NCBI GenBank assembly: GCA_027487685.1
Contig: JAIYDC010000020.1
Span: 1-37,835, forward strand
Origin: Pseudomonadota bacterium
Lineage (GTDB): Bacteria; Bdellovibrionota; Bacteriovoracia; Bacteriovoracales; Bacteriovoracaceae
DNA length: 37,835 bases
Reading direction: 5' to 3'
In this document: positions 5,765 through 37,099 of the stretch, piece after piece
Position numbering within the stretch: the stretch's first letter is position 1
Layout: every line of letters starts with the position of its first letter
Notes under the pieces: model-generated
The model's database searches: none
The model's input: the letters and a program-made list of their open reading frames with translations, nothing else
What the model was told of the DNA's origin: nothing
Translations under genes and position numbers: made by a program

Positions 5765-6278
5765 GCTCCCCCATCGTCAGGTACTGTTCTTTGTAACTTA
5801 CATAGGCCCGGTAGTGATTGGAAACGCGCTCGATCTCCTCTGGTGAAAGAGGTCGCTCGACAACTGCCGGGCGGCCTTTGATCATGCTGCCTGCAGGGAA
5901 GCGCTTGTTGGGTGTCACCATGGAGCCCGCAGCGACAAGGCAGTTATCACCGATCTCAGCGCCATCAAGAACGATCGCGCCCATCCCTATCAGGCACCCG
6001 CTTCCGATCTTACAACCGTGAAGGATGACACTGTGGCCGAGGGAAGTGTTCTCACCGATTGTGAGGGAATTTTGCTCGGTGACGTGGAGCATGCACAGGT
6101 CCTGAATATTGGTATTGCGACCAATCTTGACGAAATTCACGTCGGCCCTGATCACCGTATTGAACCAAATATTCACATGGTCACCCAGCTCTACGCGGCC
6201 GATGATCTTAGCTCCATCAGCGGCAAAGACCCGCTCACCAAGAGTGGGATGATAATCAAAGTAGTTTGAATAGATCAT
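5727..6278 (-). CDS. Gamma-carbonic-anhydrase-like left-handed beta-helix protein
   Basis: This 183-aa protein is a hexapeptide-repeat (LbH) protein of the gamma-CA/YrdA/PaaY group. The three metal-binding histidines are present at His65 (CMLHVTE), His82 and His87 (GHSVILHGC), and the RADVNFVKIGRNTNIQD strand is typical. The C-terminal helix (LSPEEIERVSNHYRAYVSYKEQY) packs across the trimer in relatives. Carbonic anhydrase activity has been shown for only some members; others are structural or act on CoA thioesters, so the reaction is open. The ATG overlaps the stop of the upstream baeRF gene as ATGA, so translation is coupled. The last 12 codons overlap the start of the yihY-like gene and are unlike the rest of the family, probably a consequence of that overlap. 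Confidence 0.93.
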   Translation of the reverse strand: MIYSNYFDYHPTLGERVFAADGAKIIGRVELGDHVNIWFNTVIRADVNFVKIGRNTNIQDLCMLHVTEQNSLTIGENTSLGHSVILHGCKIGSGCLIGMGAIVLDGAEIGDNCLVAAGSMVTPNKRFPAGSMIKGRPAVVERPLSPEEIERVSNHYRAYVSYKEQYLTMGEHGNSDKRSGSAD

Positions 6279-32115: not shown

Positions 32116-32763
32116 ATGGGGATTCAGAGTTTTGGCGATGCCTTCGACCTCCATAAGCTCCTCCGGGCCCGGGATGTGGCCCGGGACCTCACTTACGCTC
32201 TGGCGGGGAAGCTCGAACCCGGCATGACCGAGGACGATGCCCACGCACTTTATAAAGAGCTCTGCCGCGAACACCCGGTGGAAAAGCAGTGGCACCCACC
32301 AAAACTGCGCTTTGGCCCCAATACGATTTGTAACTTCAAGGACGTCTCGGTCCCCTACGTCTTAAAGGAAGAGGATATCTTCTTCGTGGATATAGGCCCA
32401 GTGGTTGAGGGCCATGAGGCCGACTACGGTGAGACGTTTAGTCTAGGATCTAACTTTGACTTGAAGTTCATCTGCGAGGCCCAGAAGTTGGTCTTTCAAG
32501 AAGTGGCGGACCATTGGCGGAAGACCAAGGCGTCGGGGCCTGAGCTTTACGCCTTTGCTGAAACCCGGGCAAGAGCTCGGGATCTCATGCTAAATTCAGG
32601 TCAAGACGGTCATCGGATAGGTGACTTTCCTCATCATGTTCATTTCCGGGGAGGGCTCACTGAGCATTCAGAAGAGCTGGTGCCTAACGCTTGGATTCTT
32701 GAAATTCATCTCTGGGGTCCGGGGAAGCGGTATGGGGCGTTTTTTGAAGATCTGCTAGTTTAG
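32116..32763 (+). CDS. M24-family metallopeptidase-like protein
   Basis: This 215-aa protein has the pita-bread fold of M24 (Xaa-Pro or methionine aminopeptidase) enzymes. Metal ligands can be placed: Asp and Asp in FVDIGPVVEGHEADYGETF, His in HRIGDFPHHVHF, Glu in WILEIHLWGP, and the last Glu near the C-terminus (AFFEDLL). It is shorter than aminopeptidase P and lacks the creatinase N-domain, so it may act on other small substrates. It starts at ATG right after the yqeY stop and ends the proB operon, followed by a GC-rich hairpin. Confidence 0.85.
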   Translation: MGIQSFGDAFDLHKLLRARDVARDLTYALAGKLEPGMTEDDAHALYKELCREHPVEKQWHPPKLRFGPNTICNFKDVSVPYVLKEEDIFFVDIGPVVEGHEADYGETFSLGSNFDLKFICEAQKLVFQEVADHWRKTKASGPELYAFAETRARARDLMLNSGQDGHRIGDFPHHVHFRGGLTEHSEELVPNAWILEIHLWGPGKRYGAFFEDLLV

Positions 32764-32780: not shown

Positions 32781-32810
32781 GGGCCCTGCGAGAGGGCCCC
32801 TGCTATTTTG
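32781..32810 (+). terminator. Hairpin after the M24 gene
   Basis: GGGCCCT (32781-32787) pairs with AGGGCCC (32793-32799) around a 5-nt loop; the tail is only weakly T-rich (ATTTTG). It closes the proB operon and touches the end of a minus-strand microprotein gene. Confidence 0.6.
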
Positions 32811-32907
32811 TAGCAACGGCCTGCCGCCGCCGGTACAGGGAGTGCTGAAGAGCAAGGCTAGTCATCATCATCATCATTAGTCCCGCAAGTCCAAACATCA
32901 TTTCCAT
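32803..32907 (-). CDS. Single-helix microprotein with RRR motif, 34 aa
   Basis: ATG at 32905-32907 is preceded by AGGAGA, 8 nt upstream. The 34-residue product starts MEMMFGLAGL, contains five consecutive Met within one hydrophobic stretch that could span the membrane, and ends with a basic tail (HSLYRRRQAVATK). The same plan, down to the Met-Glu start, GLM/GIM near the middle and an Arg-Arg-Arg motif in the tail, recurs in the 30-aa frame at 33604-33696. The layout predicts the N-terminus outside and the basic tail in the cytoplasm. No family is known to me. The long frame that runs through here on the same strand has no ribosome site further upstream, so this short start is preferred. Confidence 0.6.
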   Translation of the reverse strand: MEMMFGLAGLMMMMMTSLALQHSLYRRRQAVATK

Positions 32908-33094
32908 TTGAGGTTCTCCTGTTGCACTCTTATCTTCCTGATGTTCACTTGGGGTCTCCATCCTGGTGACTCCGATGCAAACTCTTAAAGCAGGAATCGT
33001 GCCAAGAAGTTTCAGGAGAAAACCAAGTATTTTGCGGGAACTTGGTGCCACTGTGGCCTTGGTCGGGGCCATTTGCGCTATGGGTGCTGGGCCA

Positions 33095-33547
33095 TTAAGG
33101 GCAGAAGCGGTTCCGGAAGGAGGTCTGGATATCAATCGCTTCCGACTCAAGAGCGTCGTCGTTAAGGTCCCGCTCCTGGTACTTGGACTGAACATAGTGA
33201 ACGAGTTCATGAGCGAGGGAATCGTCGATACACCGGCGAAAACGCGCGTAGTACGTGGGTTCATCGGAAAGGAAAATGGTGTTGTGTCGGGCGCTGAAGG
33301 CGTTAATGATGACGTGAGGCCTGAAACCCCACTGGGGCTCAATCATGTCCTGGAAGACCTCGAGAGGGGTCCGGCTCTCAAGGAGCAAGCTCGGAAGTGG
33401 TAGGTCTTTGCGTTCTTCAAGTCTCTTGGCCTGGAGGACCTCCGCTAGAATGAACTCCAGGGAGTAAGTGAGTTTGGCCGGTGCTGGTGCGGCAGTGGCC
33501 GAGAGTGAGGTGGCGGCTATGAGACTTAAGGCAAGAAGGGTTTTCAT
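33095..33547 (-). CDS. Secreted HExxH-motif protein (putative metallopeptidase), 150 aa
   Basis: The protein has a signal peptide (MKTLLALSLIAATSLSATA, cleavage near residue 20) and a gluzincin-like zinc motif HELVH at residues 113-117, within DDSLAHELVHYVQSKY, followed by ALESEAIDIQ, in which a Glu can be the third zinc ligand. A small peptidase domain of about 110 residues is likely, exported to the periplasm or outside. I cannot name the family. The ATG at 33545-33547 has no clear ribosome site. It lies between two related microprotein genes on the same strand (gaps of 56 and 187 bp), and the three may form one unit. Confidence 0.82.
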   Translation of the reverse strand: MKTLLALSLIAATSLSATAAPAPAKLTYSLEFILAEVLQAKRLEERKDLPLPSLLLESRTPLEVFQDMIEPQWGFRPHVIINAFSARHNTIFLSDEPTYYARFRRCIDDSLAHELVHYVQSKYQERDLNDDALESEAIDIQTSFRNRFCP

Positions 33548-33603
33548 GGAGCAAGACTATAACCCCAGAGATCGCCTGGAACAACCTCCCCTATAAAAAA
33601 GGT

Positions 33604-33696
33604 CTACTTCCGGCGGCGTGTGAGCCGTTGAAAGATGAGAGAAAAGCTCACCGAGGAGATCATAATTCCACCGAGGACAAGCAGTTCTTCTTCCAT
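33604..33696 (-). CDS. Single-helix microprotein ending in RRRK, 30 aa
   Basis: ATG at 33694-33696 has a strong ribosome site TAGGAGG. The 30-residue product reads MEEELLVLGGIMISSVSFS at the start, then a short hydrophobic stretch and a basic end (FQRLTRRRK). It aligns with the 34-aa microprotein at 32803 with one gap: Met-Glu start, Leu-x-Gly, Leu/Ile-Met, Ser, Leu and Arg-Arg-Arg all coincide. It is the first gene of the set microprotein, HExxH protein, microprotein. It probably inserts in the inner membrane with the basic tail inside. No family is known to me. Confidence 0.65.
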   Translation of the reverse strand: MEEELLVLGGIMISSVSFSLIFQRLTRRRK

Positions 33697-34135
33697 TGAG
33701 GCCTCCTATTAAGAAGTTAAAAAAGGTGGTTCTTCCTTGAACCGGGTGGGCCCGTCTATCCGTGGACTCTCACCGCTCTTTTCCATGAGACAATTTTAAA
33801 AACTTAGAATTCATCCTGAATCTGTGCTGACCCCTACCATCCTGGCGGAGGAACTCGCTGATTCGAAATAAGACTGAGCATGAACCGTGCCAAGCATGGC
33901 ACCTTGCACTTCTGAAGAGTTGCACCGACTCAGGGCCGCACCGGTGTCGGGCGGGCACCGGTTCGGCCGACACCAGGGCCATCATGGGGGCGAAGAAGTT
34001 GAGTACGATGAAATGGTAAAGACCATGAGAAAAAGTTAATCCGGGGGTCTTGTGAAGTTTTGCGTTCCATGAAACCATCAAAGAAGAAAGGGAGTTCAAG
34101 ACGAACTCTCTCATCTCACCAGGAGGGTGAAGGTC
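33697..34135. other. 440-bp gap with several hairpins and no supported gene
   Basis: I see no convincing gene here. There are perfect short hairpins: GTGCCA-AGCA-TGGCAC (33887-33902), GGTGTCGG with CCGACACC (33943-33974), and GAGTTC-AAGAC-GAACTC (34092-34108) just before the ribosome site of the next gene. A short open stretch in the middle of the plus strand reads LTPTILAEELADSK without a start, like a gene remnant. The region could hold a small RNA or decayed genes; no known RNA family is recognised. Confidence 0.4.
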
Positions 34136-34393
34136 ATGGCCCCACACTACTACCTCATGAAGTCTAAGAAGATCCTCCGCCTCGAGGCCGATACGGACTT
34201 CGCGGCCCTCCCGCTTCCCGTGCGCTTGAGGGTCTTAGACGACGAGGACGTCACGGCGCTGGACCAGAACCAGGCCAACTGGCGCGTGGTTATCTTCCGT
34301 GACGAGATCATGGACCTTGAAGAATTCAACACCTGGCTCTCCGACCCCGAGTCTTCCCAGGATGAAGTCGACTTTGAGCAAATCGCCAACTAA
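34136..34393 (+). CDS. Acidic hypothetical protein, 85 aa
   Basis: ATG 34136 follows a strong ribosome site AGGAGGG (34121-34127); the in-frame GTG 34127 overlaps that site and is not used. The product is small, soluble and acidic in its second half (DDEDVTALDQNQ, FRDEIMDLEEF, PESSQDEVDFEQ) after a basic start (MAPHYYLMKSKK). No family is recognised. It lies 129 bp upstream of the sigma-factor gene on the same strand, with a weak hairpin in between, so a link to that sigma factor (for example as an accessory protein) is possible but unproven. Confidence 0.75.
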   Translation: MAPHYYLMKSKKILRLEADTDFAALPLPVRLRVLDDEDVTALDQNQANWRVVIFRDEIMDLEEFNTWLSDPESSQDEVDFEQIAN

Positions 34394-34522: not shown

Positions 34523-35224
34523 ATGCAGAACACGAACCCACAAGAGACTTCTCGGCAGGACATCATAAAAAATTTCATGCCCTCAATTCGGTACTGGGCC
34601 AAGCACTACCACTACCAGTACCACCAGGTACTTGAGTTCGAAGACCTGGTCATGGTGGGAGTGATAGGGCTCATCGATGCCATGAACAAGTACAAGAAAG
34701 AAAAAAAGAACCAGTTTAAGACCTATGCTGAGTTCCGGATCCGTGGCGAGATTATCGATGAGCTCCGGAAGCAGGACTGGATGACCCGGTCTGAGCGCAA
34801 TAAGCAGAAAAAATATAAGAAAGCGAAGGGCAACCTGACTGAGGAGCTGGGTCGTGCTCCGACTAGTAATGAGATGTCTAACGTTCTGCCGTTTAAGTCG
34901 CGGGACATGGTACGAATGGAACAATACGAGAGTGGGGATACAATCAAGCAGTACGTCGAGGGAGAAACGTTTCATCAGTCCACTCTCCAAAACCATGAGT
35001 TTGAGAGTTATAGCTTAAAGAAGACATTGAGTGTGGTGATGGATCAGCTCCCGCGGAACATGCAGTTGATTCTGACTCTGAAGTACTTTGAGGATCTTAA
35101 CTTCTTCGAGATCTCGAAGGTGGTGAATCTTTCCGAGGGACGGATCTGTCAGCTTCACGCTGAGGCGTTAGAGCTTTTGAAGTCCTACCTTGATGAGCAG
35201 CAGGTCGATATTCTTGCGGCTTAG
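34523..35224 (+). CDS. FliA-like alternative sigma factor (sigma-70 family)
   Basis: This 233-aa protein has sigma-70 region 2 (about 15-85: LEFEDLVMVGVIGLIDAMNKY and FKTYAEFRIRGEIIDELRKQDW), region 3 (about 90-150: RKAPTSNEM-type helix NLTEELGRAPTSNEM), and region 4 (about 165-225: LPRNMQLILTLKYFEDLNFFEISKVVNLSEGRICQLHAEALELL). The layout and IRGEIIDELRKQDW are typical of the FliA/WhiG group, which directs flagellar or developmental genes. No anti-sigma gene or flagellar gene is next to it, so it is an orphan here. Its start is fixed by AGGAGG at 34512-34517. A decayed partial copy lies 1.5 kb downstream. Confidence 0.93.
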   Translation: MQNTNPQETSRQDIIKNFMPSIRYWAKHYHYQYHQVLEFEDLVMVGVIGLIDAMNKYKKEKKNQFKTYAEFRIRGEIIDELRKQDWMTRSERNKQKKYKKAKGNLTEELGRAPTSNEMSNVLPFKSRDMVRMEQYESGDTIKQYVEGETFHQSTLQNHEFESYSLKKTLSVVMDQLPRNMQLILTLKYFEDLNFFEISKVVNLSEGRICQLHAEALELLKSYLDEQQVDILAA

Positions 35225-35266: not shown

Positions 35267-35577
35267 AATTTAGATAATAACGGAATCAAGGGGATTAATG
35301 AGTCACACGCAACGGTAACGACACATCTCGCCCTTGAAATATATCTCACTCCGGGGATTACCTCTCTACTAGACTCACGACACTGAGATGGACTGTGCCC
35401 ATTTCTAGCAGCGATCTCCAATGCTTTAAATCTTGCAAAACAGCACTTACCCAAGCTGTTATTTGGCATCGTCCAAAATCCTGACACACGAATGTAATTC
35501 GTTCTATGAGCATGTGAAGCTCTCAGAATCCGTTCAATAATTAAATGAATTAAAACAAGCAGTGGACACGTGGCCAC
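35263..35577 (-). pseudogene. Remnant of a small Cys-containing secreted-protein gene
   Basis: The frame is open for 104 codons and its C-terminal half resembles the mature part of the secreted protein at 37180-37461: SGFWT against SGGFQTT, a Cys followed by ALEIAARNGHSPSQC against a Cys and ARIYASGRGYTTDQC, and ARCVVTVAC against RHCQVVIAC. The Cys spacings agree within a few residues. The N-terminal part, however, has no signal peptide and no ribosome site, so the exported form seems to be lost, or the start is undetected. A good minus-strand terminator sits on its stop codon, suggesting that a transcript still ends here. In-frame ATG at 35470-35472 would give 69 aa. Confidence 0.45.
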
Positions 35578-35603
35578 ATCAGTATCTGACGAGGAGAATT
35601 TAT

Positions 35604-36080
35604 ATGAATCTTAAAGCTCAAGTTTTGATTGTGGCATTCCTTCAAATTGGAGCCTCGGCCCAAGCGGCCAACGAAACGTATCCGGTTGCCCCAGGCCATC
35701 GATGCGCACAAGGATACGCCCATAACGGAGTGATAACTAATGGATATGGCACGTGCATTAAACTAGGCGCATTCAACGAATACCATTTAGGTCAAGGTCA
35801 GCCTTGTGGAGCGGGGTACGCACACAATGGAGTCATCACCAACGGATACGGAACGTGCATTAAACTTGGCGCGTTTAACGAATACTACGTAGGTCAGGGC
35901 CAGAGGTGTGGAGCTGGATACGCGCACAACGGATTAATCACGAACGGATATGGCACTTGCATTAAACTTGGCGCGTATACCGAATACCAGGTAGCTCCCG
36001 GTCAGCCTTGTGGAGCAGGATATGCAAGCAACGGAATAATGACGAACGGCTATGGAACATGCTTCAAAGTGGGAAATTAA
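35604..36080 (+). CDS. Secreted protein of four 34-residue Cys-pair repeats, 158 aa
   Basis: ATG 35604 follows the ribosome site GAGGAG (35591-35596). A signal peptide (about 1-21, cleavage after GASAQA) precedes four tandem units, at residues 26-59, 60-93, 94-127 and 128-158 (the last is cut short). Each unit has two cysteines 16 residues apart, in CGAGYAHNGVITNGYGTC, followed by a KLGA(F/Y)xE spacer. The Cys pair probably closes a disulfide within each unit, giving a rigid secreted rod or adhesive module. Units differ by many silent changes, so the repeat is old and kept at protein level. I recognise no family. The gene stands alone in the accessory end of the window. Confidence 0.88.
   Translation: MNLKAQVLIVAFLQIGASAQAANETYPVAPGHRCAQGYAHNGVITNGYGTCIKLGAFNEYHLGQGQPCGAGYAHNGVITNGYGTCIKLGAFNEYYVGQGQRCGAGYAHNGLITNGYGTCIKLGAYTEYQVAPGQPCGAGYASNGIMTNGYGTCFKVGN
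35679..36077 (+). repeat. Tandem repeat of about 102 bp, four units
   Basis: Units begin at 35679, 35781, 35883 and 35985, the last about 93 bp. All lie in one frame of the gene and encode the 34-residue units. Confidence 0.9.
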
Positions 36081-36568: not shown

Positions 36569-36752
36569 AGATACCCCCGAAGTGCAATGGCAAAAATTCA
36601 TTCATGTGTCGCAGAAAACAATACTCATCATTGTAAGAGAGTTCATTAAATTTTCCAATCCTGCATACACTCAAACTAATTTACTCAACTGCCTCTCTTT
36701 GAGGGAATTGCCCCTTTACATGAATCACACAGGACTCTAGGAGAATTGCTCG

Positions 36753-37099
36753 ATGCAATTCAGCACTTTCACATCGGGCTAGCCTTAATCGCCGCCCCTA
36801 CGCTCTGCCGTTTAAGTCGCGGACGTGATCCGGATCGAGCTGTACAAGAGCGGCGATACCATTCAGCAACATATCCAAGAGAAACGTTAAATCAACCCAA
36901 TCTTCAGAACCGTGAGTTAGAGAGTTACGGCCTTAAGAAGACATTGAGTGTTGTGTTGGATCAGCTGCCGCAGAGCATGCAGTTAATTCAGACCCTAAAG
37001 TACTTCGAGGACCTTAACTTCTTTGAAATTTCGAAAGTCGTGAATCTCTCGGAAGGGAGAATCAAGGATCGGGACAACGTCGACAACCTCCCGGCCTAG
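36753..37099 (+). pseudogene. Decayed partial copy of the FliA-like sigma-factor gene
   Basis: From about 36801 the DNA follows the intact sigma gene (34523-35224). In the best-kept part KKTLSVVLDQ to LSEGRI, 39 of 43 residues agree. Two single-base losses are visible relative to the intact gene, near 36821 (after LPFKSR the frame runs into TGA) and near 36878 (a segment DVIRIELYKSGDTIQQHI then ends in TAA). Region 2 is missing, and the recognition helix of region 4 is cut after SEGRI, so it cannot work as a sigma factor. AGGAG and ATGCA at 36739-36757 recall the start of the intact gene, but the first frame stops after nine codons. Confidence 0.85.

Follow-up and report, generated by a model that had tools for sequence, protein, structure and literature searches.

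A probable sigma-54-dependent locus of CsrA-type RNA leaders and membrane microproteins in Bacteriovoracaceae

The decoy RNAs of the Csr/Rsm systems are best described in Gammaproteobacteria, and weak, short hairpins are usual for the ligands of CsrA. Another RNA motif thought to be CsrA related, TwoAYGGAY, consists of paired hairpins with GGA-containing loops. In the bacterial inner membrane, AcrZ, MgtS and CydX are regulators of about 30-50 aa with one helix. Published CsrA ligands present GGA in hairpin loops, the repeats of CsrB reading CAGGA(U/A/C)G; the RsmE site is an ANGGAN hexaloop, and glgC offers CsrA one hairpin site and one Shine-Dalgarno (SD) site (PMC7652899). In Escherichia coli, CsrB carries 22 GGA sites and CsrC 14 (PMC11882849). 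A literature search of open-licence PMC papers found no work on CsrA in Bdellovibrionota. Here we describe in this phylum what is, judging from its sequence, quite probably a sigma-54-dependent riboregulatory locus, made of CsrA-type RNA leaders and membrane microproteins.

The whole stretch of DNA analysed, 37.8 kb, is called the window below, and it was compared with 129 genomes of the family, of which 26 form its own genus, g1. A sequence-only reading had pointed to two short frames, each with a strong SD sequence, that bracket a signal-peptide-bearing HELVH ORF on the same strand. All three genes, named microA, HELVH and microB, were confirmed on the minus strand, with a structured RNA 5' of microA:

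33716-33868, minus strand: A RNA, conserved and structured, about 150 nt long, with five hairpins, four of them with a GGA loop (covariance model R1, E = 2.0e-28)
33604-33696, minus strand: microA, a 30-aa single-helix membrane microprotein, MEEELLVLGGIMISSVSFSLIFQRLTRRRK, with the SD sequence AGGAGG just 5' of its ATG
33095-33547, minus strand: HELVH protein, 150 aa with a signal-peptide-like start, a secreted putative gluzincin-like zinc peptidase
32803-32907, minus strand: microB, a 34-aa single-helix membrane microprotein, MEMMFGLAGLMMMMMTSLALQHSLYRRRQAVATK, with the SD sequence CAGGAG

The A RNA resembles CsrB/CsrC and RsmX/Y/Z in being intergenic, in running from a promoter to a terminator, in its short GGA-loop hairpins and CAGGAUG-type repeats, in its terminator hairpin standing last and in the presence of csrA in the genome. 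It differs from them in its sigma-54-type promoter, in the microprotein ORF found behind it in over half of the genomes, in its occurrence outside Gammaproteobacteria and in its fewer GGA sites; their count here, 5-9, is below that of well-known CsrB-type decoys and counts against the proposed mechanism. It also lacks a sequence match: in Rfam, the RNA matched none of the CsrB, CsrC, RsmX/Y/Z and TwoAYGGAY models, neither at the gathering score nor at E<=10, although it has paired GGA-loop hairpins in common with TwoAYGGAY. Two Rfam hits that did fall in the interval, at E 0.25 and 4.7, were put down to chance. The leader of microB is closer to the glgC-type CsrA-repressed leaders (PMC7652899), with its GGA-loop hairpin(s) just 5' of a GGA-holding SD sequence; unlike them, it precedes a 34-aa membrane protein, has a sigma-54-type promoter and keeps its hairpin pair genus-wide. 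The flaA mRNA of Campylobacter jejuni is likewise reported to be a translated RNA in a CsrA network outside Gammaproteobacteria (PMC4894983), but there it codes for a major structural protein, whereas here the RNA is short and the ORF tiny or absent. The microproteins match AcrZ, MgtS and CydX in size and single helix and have no sequence relation to them in Pfam or NCBIfam. As read here, the locus works like the known Csr systems, yet it is no member of a described RNA family.

Both transcripts appear to start in the same way. The exact sequence TTGGCACNNNTCNTGCT occurs twice in the window, once 5' of each microprotein, and the GG (-24) and GC (-12) of a sigma-54 element stand ten bases apart within TTGGCAC..TGCT:

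33877-33893, minus strand: sigma-54 -24/-12 element of the A transcript, TTGGCACGGTTCATGCT; an equivalent precedes the A RNAs of the genus
32989-33005, minus strand: sigma-54 -24/-12 element of the B transcript, TTGGCACGATTCCTGCT; an equivalent precedes the microB copies of the genus
33943-33959, minus strand: GGTGCCCGCCCGACACC, a palindrome upstream of A that may be an activator site (UAS); weak, the motif having been read by eye from the sequences themselves
33044-33060, minus strand: AAGGCCACAGTGGCACC, a palindrome upstream of B that may likewise be an activator site (UAS); weak, its motif from the same sequences

Genus-wide, the element follows the pattern TTGGCAY, 5-6 bases, TGCT. It lies 93-105 nt before the microB ATG in the g1 copies found by this pattern, and about 175-230 nt before the microproteins that follow an A RNA. 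Palindromes like GGTGYCANNNTGRCACC were seen 40-100 bp further upstream, with a mean of 3.2 mismatches against 5.2 in shuffled sequences, the motif having been taken from the same sequences. The gene rpoN is present in 26/26 g1 genomes, the copy of our own genome being cut by the contig end. We infer from the promoter elements that the locus is transcribed by sigma-54.

The A RNA folds, according to its alignment, into the following hairpins:

33831-33851, minus strand: hairpin 1, CCTCCGCCAGGATGGTAGGGG, loop AGGAU, with a covarying stem
33808-33822, minus strand: hairpin 2, GATTC-AGGAT-GAATT, which becomes GTTTC-AGGAT-GAAAC in a subset of relatives
33775-33791, minus strand: hairpin 3, CTC-ATGGAAAA-GAG, with an invariant stem
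33745-33775, minus strand: hairpin 4, GGTG..GTCC-..-GGGC..CACC, with a covarying stem
33728-33743, minus strand: hairpin 5, GGTTC-AAGGAA-GAACC, with an ANGGAN hexaloop and then a U-run; terminator-like

In that alignment, which comprises 20 genomes, the five helices are 97.9% paired and show 24 double changes against 6.5 in shuffles (0/500), the stem of hairpin 5 being invariant in all 20 relatives. The motif C[NNGGAN]G is found 21 times in nine A leaders, as compared with 2.6 times in shuffles and a maximum of 7. Several observations count against the reading. Folding energies of single sequences were no better than those of shuffles (z 0.57 and 0.33), and some of the hairpins are missing from the predicted minimum-energy folds. 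Since there is no excess stability in single sequences, it is covariation that carries the structural case. The U-run after hairpin 5 is also short, often 5-6 U, and this counts against a Csr RNA.

The transcript of microB has a simpler leader:

32952-32972, minus strand: B leader hairpin 1, GAGTCACC-AGGAT-GGAGACCC, covarying
32932-32942, minus strand: B leader hairpin 2, ATC-AGGAA-GAT; the stem varies among relatives and the pairing is kept
32781-32800, minus strand: GC-rich hairpin 3' of microB, GGGGCCC..GGGCCC, a putative 3' end

For hairpin 1, 89.6% of the cells are paired and 26 double changes were counted against 8.5 in shuffles (0/500); as a control, the pairing fell to 32-52% when the partner was shifted by one, two or three columns. 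Hairpin 2 comes with eleven different stems, which were picked by eye, and 32 of their 33 pairs are kept. Among 27 such second hairpins, again picked by eye, five have no GGA in the loop, and this counts against the proposed function. In 28 B leaders, 38 instances of C[NNGGAN]G were counted, where shuffled sequences gave 4.0 on average and never more than 9. Many relatives have a hairpin and U-run terminator behind microB.

How such a locus might operate can be proposed as follows. An enhancer-binding activator would switch on two similar tandem transcripts. The A RNA would bind CsrA, either as a decoy, in the manner of CsrB/RsmZ, or, on read-through, as a CsrA-controlled leader of microA, hairpin 5 and the U-run acting as its terminator. 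The B transcript would be a short mRNA whose 5' UTR presents two GGA-loop hairpins and an SD sequence; since this is the layout of the glgC leader, we propose that CsrA tethers at the B hairpins and blocks the translation of microB until it is titrated. Titration of CsrA by the A RNA would free microB and other targets from this repression. The microproteins would be single-pass proteins of the inner membrane, most likely modulating a membrane protein or complex that belongs to the same switch, and, given their acidic N-terminus and basic C-terminus, the latter would probably be cytoplasmic. CsrA binding, a decoy or repressive outcome, and the topology and role of the microproteins are put forward here on the strength of sequence patterns.

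The distribution of the A RNA was established with R1, which was built without G080, G093 and all matches from outside g1. The model finds the RNA in 23 of the 26 g1 genomes at E<=2.3e-10, including the two that it had not seen (G080, 4.6e-17; G093, 2.3e-10). Beyond the genus, it recovers two copies in G024 (g10; 4e-19) and also detects the RNA in G063 (g25; 1.5e-7) and in five genomes of g43, with E-values from 3.5e-13 to 1.5e-6. The frame around the slot is constant, with a FliA-like gene on one flank and an M24 peptidase-like gene, together with genes that we take to be GatB/YqeY-like, YajQ-like, proA and proB, on the other:

34127-34393, plus strand: 88-aa ORF with no known function, a divergent neighbour kept in g1, g5, g10 and g43
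34523-35224, plus strand: FliA/WhiG-type sigma factor gene, a conserved neighbour
32116-32763, plus strand: M24 peptidase-like gene, a conserved neighbour on the opposite side

In g43, the FliA-like gene, the 88-aa ORF and the M24 gene flank an A RNA and a 38-aa single-helix protein; g10 keeps FliA and the 88-aa ORF at the locus, and g5 keeps the 88-aa ORF. This conservation of neighbours in three other genera indicates that the locus and its arrangement predate the genus.

Other observations were made on this flank of the window. The 88-aa ORF, which belongs to no family, accompanies the RNA locus in four genera and could be functionally linked to it. The C-terminal part of the FliA-like gene product recurs in a second, shorter ORF (36746-37099, plus strand), a partial duplication, and the ORF at 35562-36080 (plus strand) codes for a secreted protein with four near-identical repeats of about 35 residues (CGAGYAHNGVITNGYGTCIKLGAFNEY).

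What follows the A RNA varies. Reading of the loci showed microA or a similar microprotein 3' of it in 13 of the 23 g1 genomes, our window among those in which it is present, and the other ten have the sigma-54 element, hairpin 5 and the U-run with no microprotein behind them:

A RNA then microprotein: G000, G081, G083, G084, G086, G087, G088, G089, G093, G094, G101, G103, G104
A RNA without microprotein: G080, G082, G085, G091, G092, G095, G097, G099, G100, G102

A possibility was that the A RNA acts purely in cis, as an attenuator or translation switch of the ORF behind it and not as a decoy, a ligand (CsrA or other) setting the read-through at hairpin 5. The SD sequence and ORF behind it in 13 of 23 genomes fit this view. 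So do a divergent copy before a DksA/TraR-like gene in G063 and the other microproteins found behind the A RNA in g43 and g10, as a transferable leader predicts. However, RNA, terminator hairpin and promoter are equally conserved in the ten genomes that have no microprotein ORF, which is more than a pure leader would need, and we consider this explanation rather unlikely.

Another view is that the locus is a sigma-54-controlled microprotein locus in which a protein other than CsrA binds the GGA hairpins, or in which these are RNA stability elements. CsrA binding is here a prediction and the single-sequence fold energies are unremarkable, which would be compatible with such a view. On the other hand, loop and closing pair are close to the published CsrA/RsmE ligands, and csrA is single-copy in 24/26 g1 genomes with a near-identical score throughout. 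This alternative seems improbable to us.

Coming back to the sigma-54-dependent riboregulatory locus that we favour, we can tentatively go one step further, to a scheme that we regard as possible, though less likely than not. The A RNA may be a dual-function Csr RNA of a new class, that is, a sigma-54-switched CsrA decoy with a membrane microprotein behind its own terminator, and its duplication would have produced a further microprotein mRNA, repressed by CsrA. It would be an ancestral switch of the family, whose leader module moved onto DksA/TraR-like and subtilisin-like protease genes. A search with a sigma-54 element plus AGGANGG gave about 130 matches in 65 of the 129 genomes of the family, whereas the reversed pattern gave a handful; some of the 130 are plain SD sequences, and our own genome gave just A, B and a third match that is probably an SD sequence. 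The multi-GGA leaders stand before varied genes, so that the coupling of sigma-54 to GGA leaders looks like a habit of the family.

Individual loci from the survey are listed here for themselves, their genes being named by inspection. A sigma-54 element and a multi-GGA leader precede a DksA/TraR-like zinc-finger gene at L120-L122, L124 and L125 (g13), and at L171 (G063, g25) the leader of the DksA/TraR-like gene is the divergent A RNA mentioned above. The same type of leader is found in four genomes (L127, L129-L131; g16) before an exported, probably subtilisin-like protein of about 486 aa. At L119 (G028, g11), four GGA hairpins and a long U/C-rich tract lie downstream of a sigma-54 element and there is no ORF; this may be a CsrA decoy RNA that stands alone. 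At L114 and L115 (g5), microproteins of 38 and 42 aa stand behind leaders with several GGA hairpins, adjoining the same 88-aa ORF, and a further one stands behind a multi-GGA leader at L117. On the minus strand of L091 (G101), going down from about position 5860, the array has a third tandem copy of the sigma-54/GGA leader, which precedes an ORF of at least 69 aa instead of microB. B-type leaders (GCTAGGATGGTGA and a second GGA hairpin) also occur elsewhere in the genome at L139-L141 (G093, G094, G095), before a different ORF starting with MNALAIQ or MNTLTLQ.

The two short frames had been taken for a related pair of single-helix membrane microproteins, and both conservation and selection bear this out. 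A profile search found microB homologues in 24/26 g1 genomes (E<=7e-6), several of them with two tandem copies, and no convincing microB in genus g4; microA is rarer among relatives. Both genes are under purifying selection. For microB, among pairs of more than 70% identity, pN/pS was 0.26 in the coding frame and 1.15 and 1.49 in the two others, synonymous change being dominant in the coding frame only; for microA it was 0.077 (G000 vs G088). Each protein contains a single hydrophobic stretch, whose highest Kyte-Doolittle mean over 19 residues is 1.95 for microA and 1.53 for microB, between an acidic N-flank and a basic C-flank. Among the shared features proposed from the sequence, relatives keep the helix, the basic tail and, in most cases, the Met-Glu start, while the Arg-Arg-Arg motif is not kept, the tails reading RRK, KRK or RKK for A and KKV, RRV or KVKV for B. 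The two proteins are probably paralogues. Their direct profile comparison is weak (hhalign probability 45%, E 2e-4), and the argument is drawn from A/B intermediates in G103, G024 and G094, which outscore all shuffles on the B profile. Neither protein has a family in Pfam or NCBIfam; DUF6724 came up for microA at E 0.23, far under the cut-off, and was discarded. The g43 and g5 microproteins show no significant sequence relationship to microB and are linked to it by place and leader alone. By sequence, the microproteins drift beyond recognition across genera.

The same proteins had also been suspected of being a toxin-like pair, and one might think of a type I toxin-antitoxin locus in which microA and microB are membrane-depolarising peptides whose translation is checked by structured leaders. 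Size, the single hydrophobic helix and the basic tail do fit small membrane toxins, and the leader hairpins seem to guard translation. Yet an Rfam search identified no antisense RNA gene. The locus is kept as one syntenic locus over the genus and, by place, in other genera, with few extra copies; in our own genome there are just two copies, in a conserved neighbourhood, and the purifying selection on both proteins also argues against toxins. To our knowledge, the known type I modules have neither sigma-54 control nor loops of the CsrA type. The toxin idea thus received no positive support and we regard it as very improbable.

There remained the HELVH gene, to which the microproteins had been supposed to be tied:

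33556-33584, minus strand: sigma-70-like promoter of HELVH, TTGTTC-N17-TATAGT, by sequence only

The residues H113, E114, H117 and E134, that is, HExxH and a downstream Glu, are invariant in 14 relatives. The predicted fold is small and confident (pLDDT 90), and there is no Pfam match. The best fold matches are the minigluzincins (selecase, jannalysin), which are small HExxH zinc peptidases as well; the match is weak (Foldseek E 0.06 and higher, probability 0.4-0.7, TM-score up to 0.46) and, unlike them, HELVH is secreted. The gene is present in 13/129 family genomes, seven in g1 and six in g4. In g1, the slot between the A RNA and microB holds HELVH in seven genomes, an unrelated secreted protein (cluster F11) in six, and is empty in G084 and G101. 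Both microproteins flank HELVH in six of the seven, the seventh (G082) having microB and the leader of microA, with microA itself absent. In the six g4 genomes, HELVH lies in a different context with neither RNA nor microproteins adjoining, so that both short frames are absent from 6 of the 13 HELVH genomes, the very outcome that the sequence-only reading had named as refuting it. A three-gene unit, with the microproteins as regulators or substrates of the peptidase, is scarcely credible: HELVH does sit between the A RNA and microB in 7/7 of the g1 genomes that carry it, but it is missing from 17/24 genomes with microB, lacks the microproteins in g4, gives way to another secreted protein in its slot and appears to have its own promoter. 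HELVH is swappable cargo of the slot, not a conserved partner.

Thus, the earlier interpretation, which did not include the sigma-54-type promoters and the GGA-hairpin leaders, is partly supported, and what looked like a gene trio would be two riboregulated genes flanking a chance passenger. Two unannotated microprotein families gain a clear regulatory address. If the dual-function scheme is true, one activator signal would both release the CsrA regulon and deliver a membrane effector. In relatives of predatory bacteria, a conserved, sigma-54-driven RNA of the CsrA type would suggest a lifestyle or stress switch, and would provide a handle on it.
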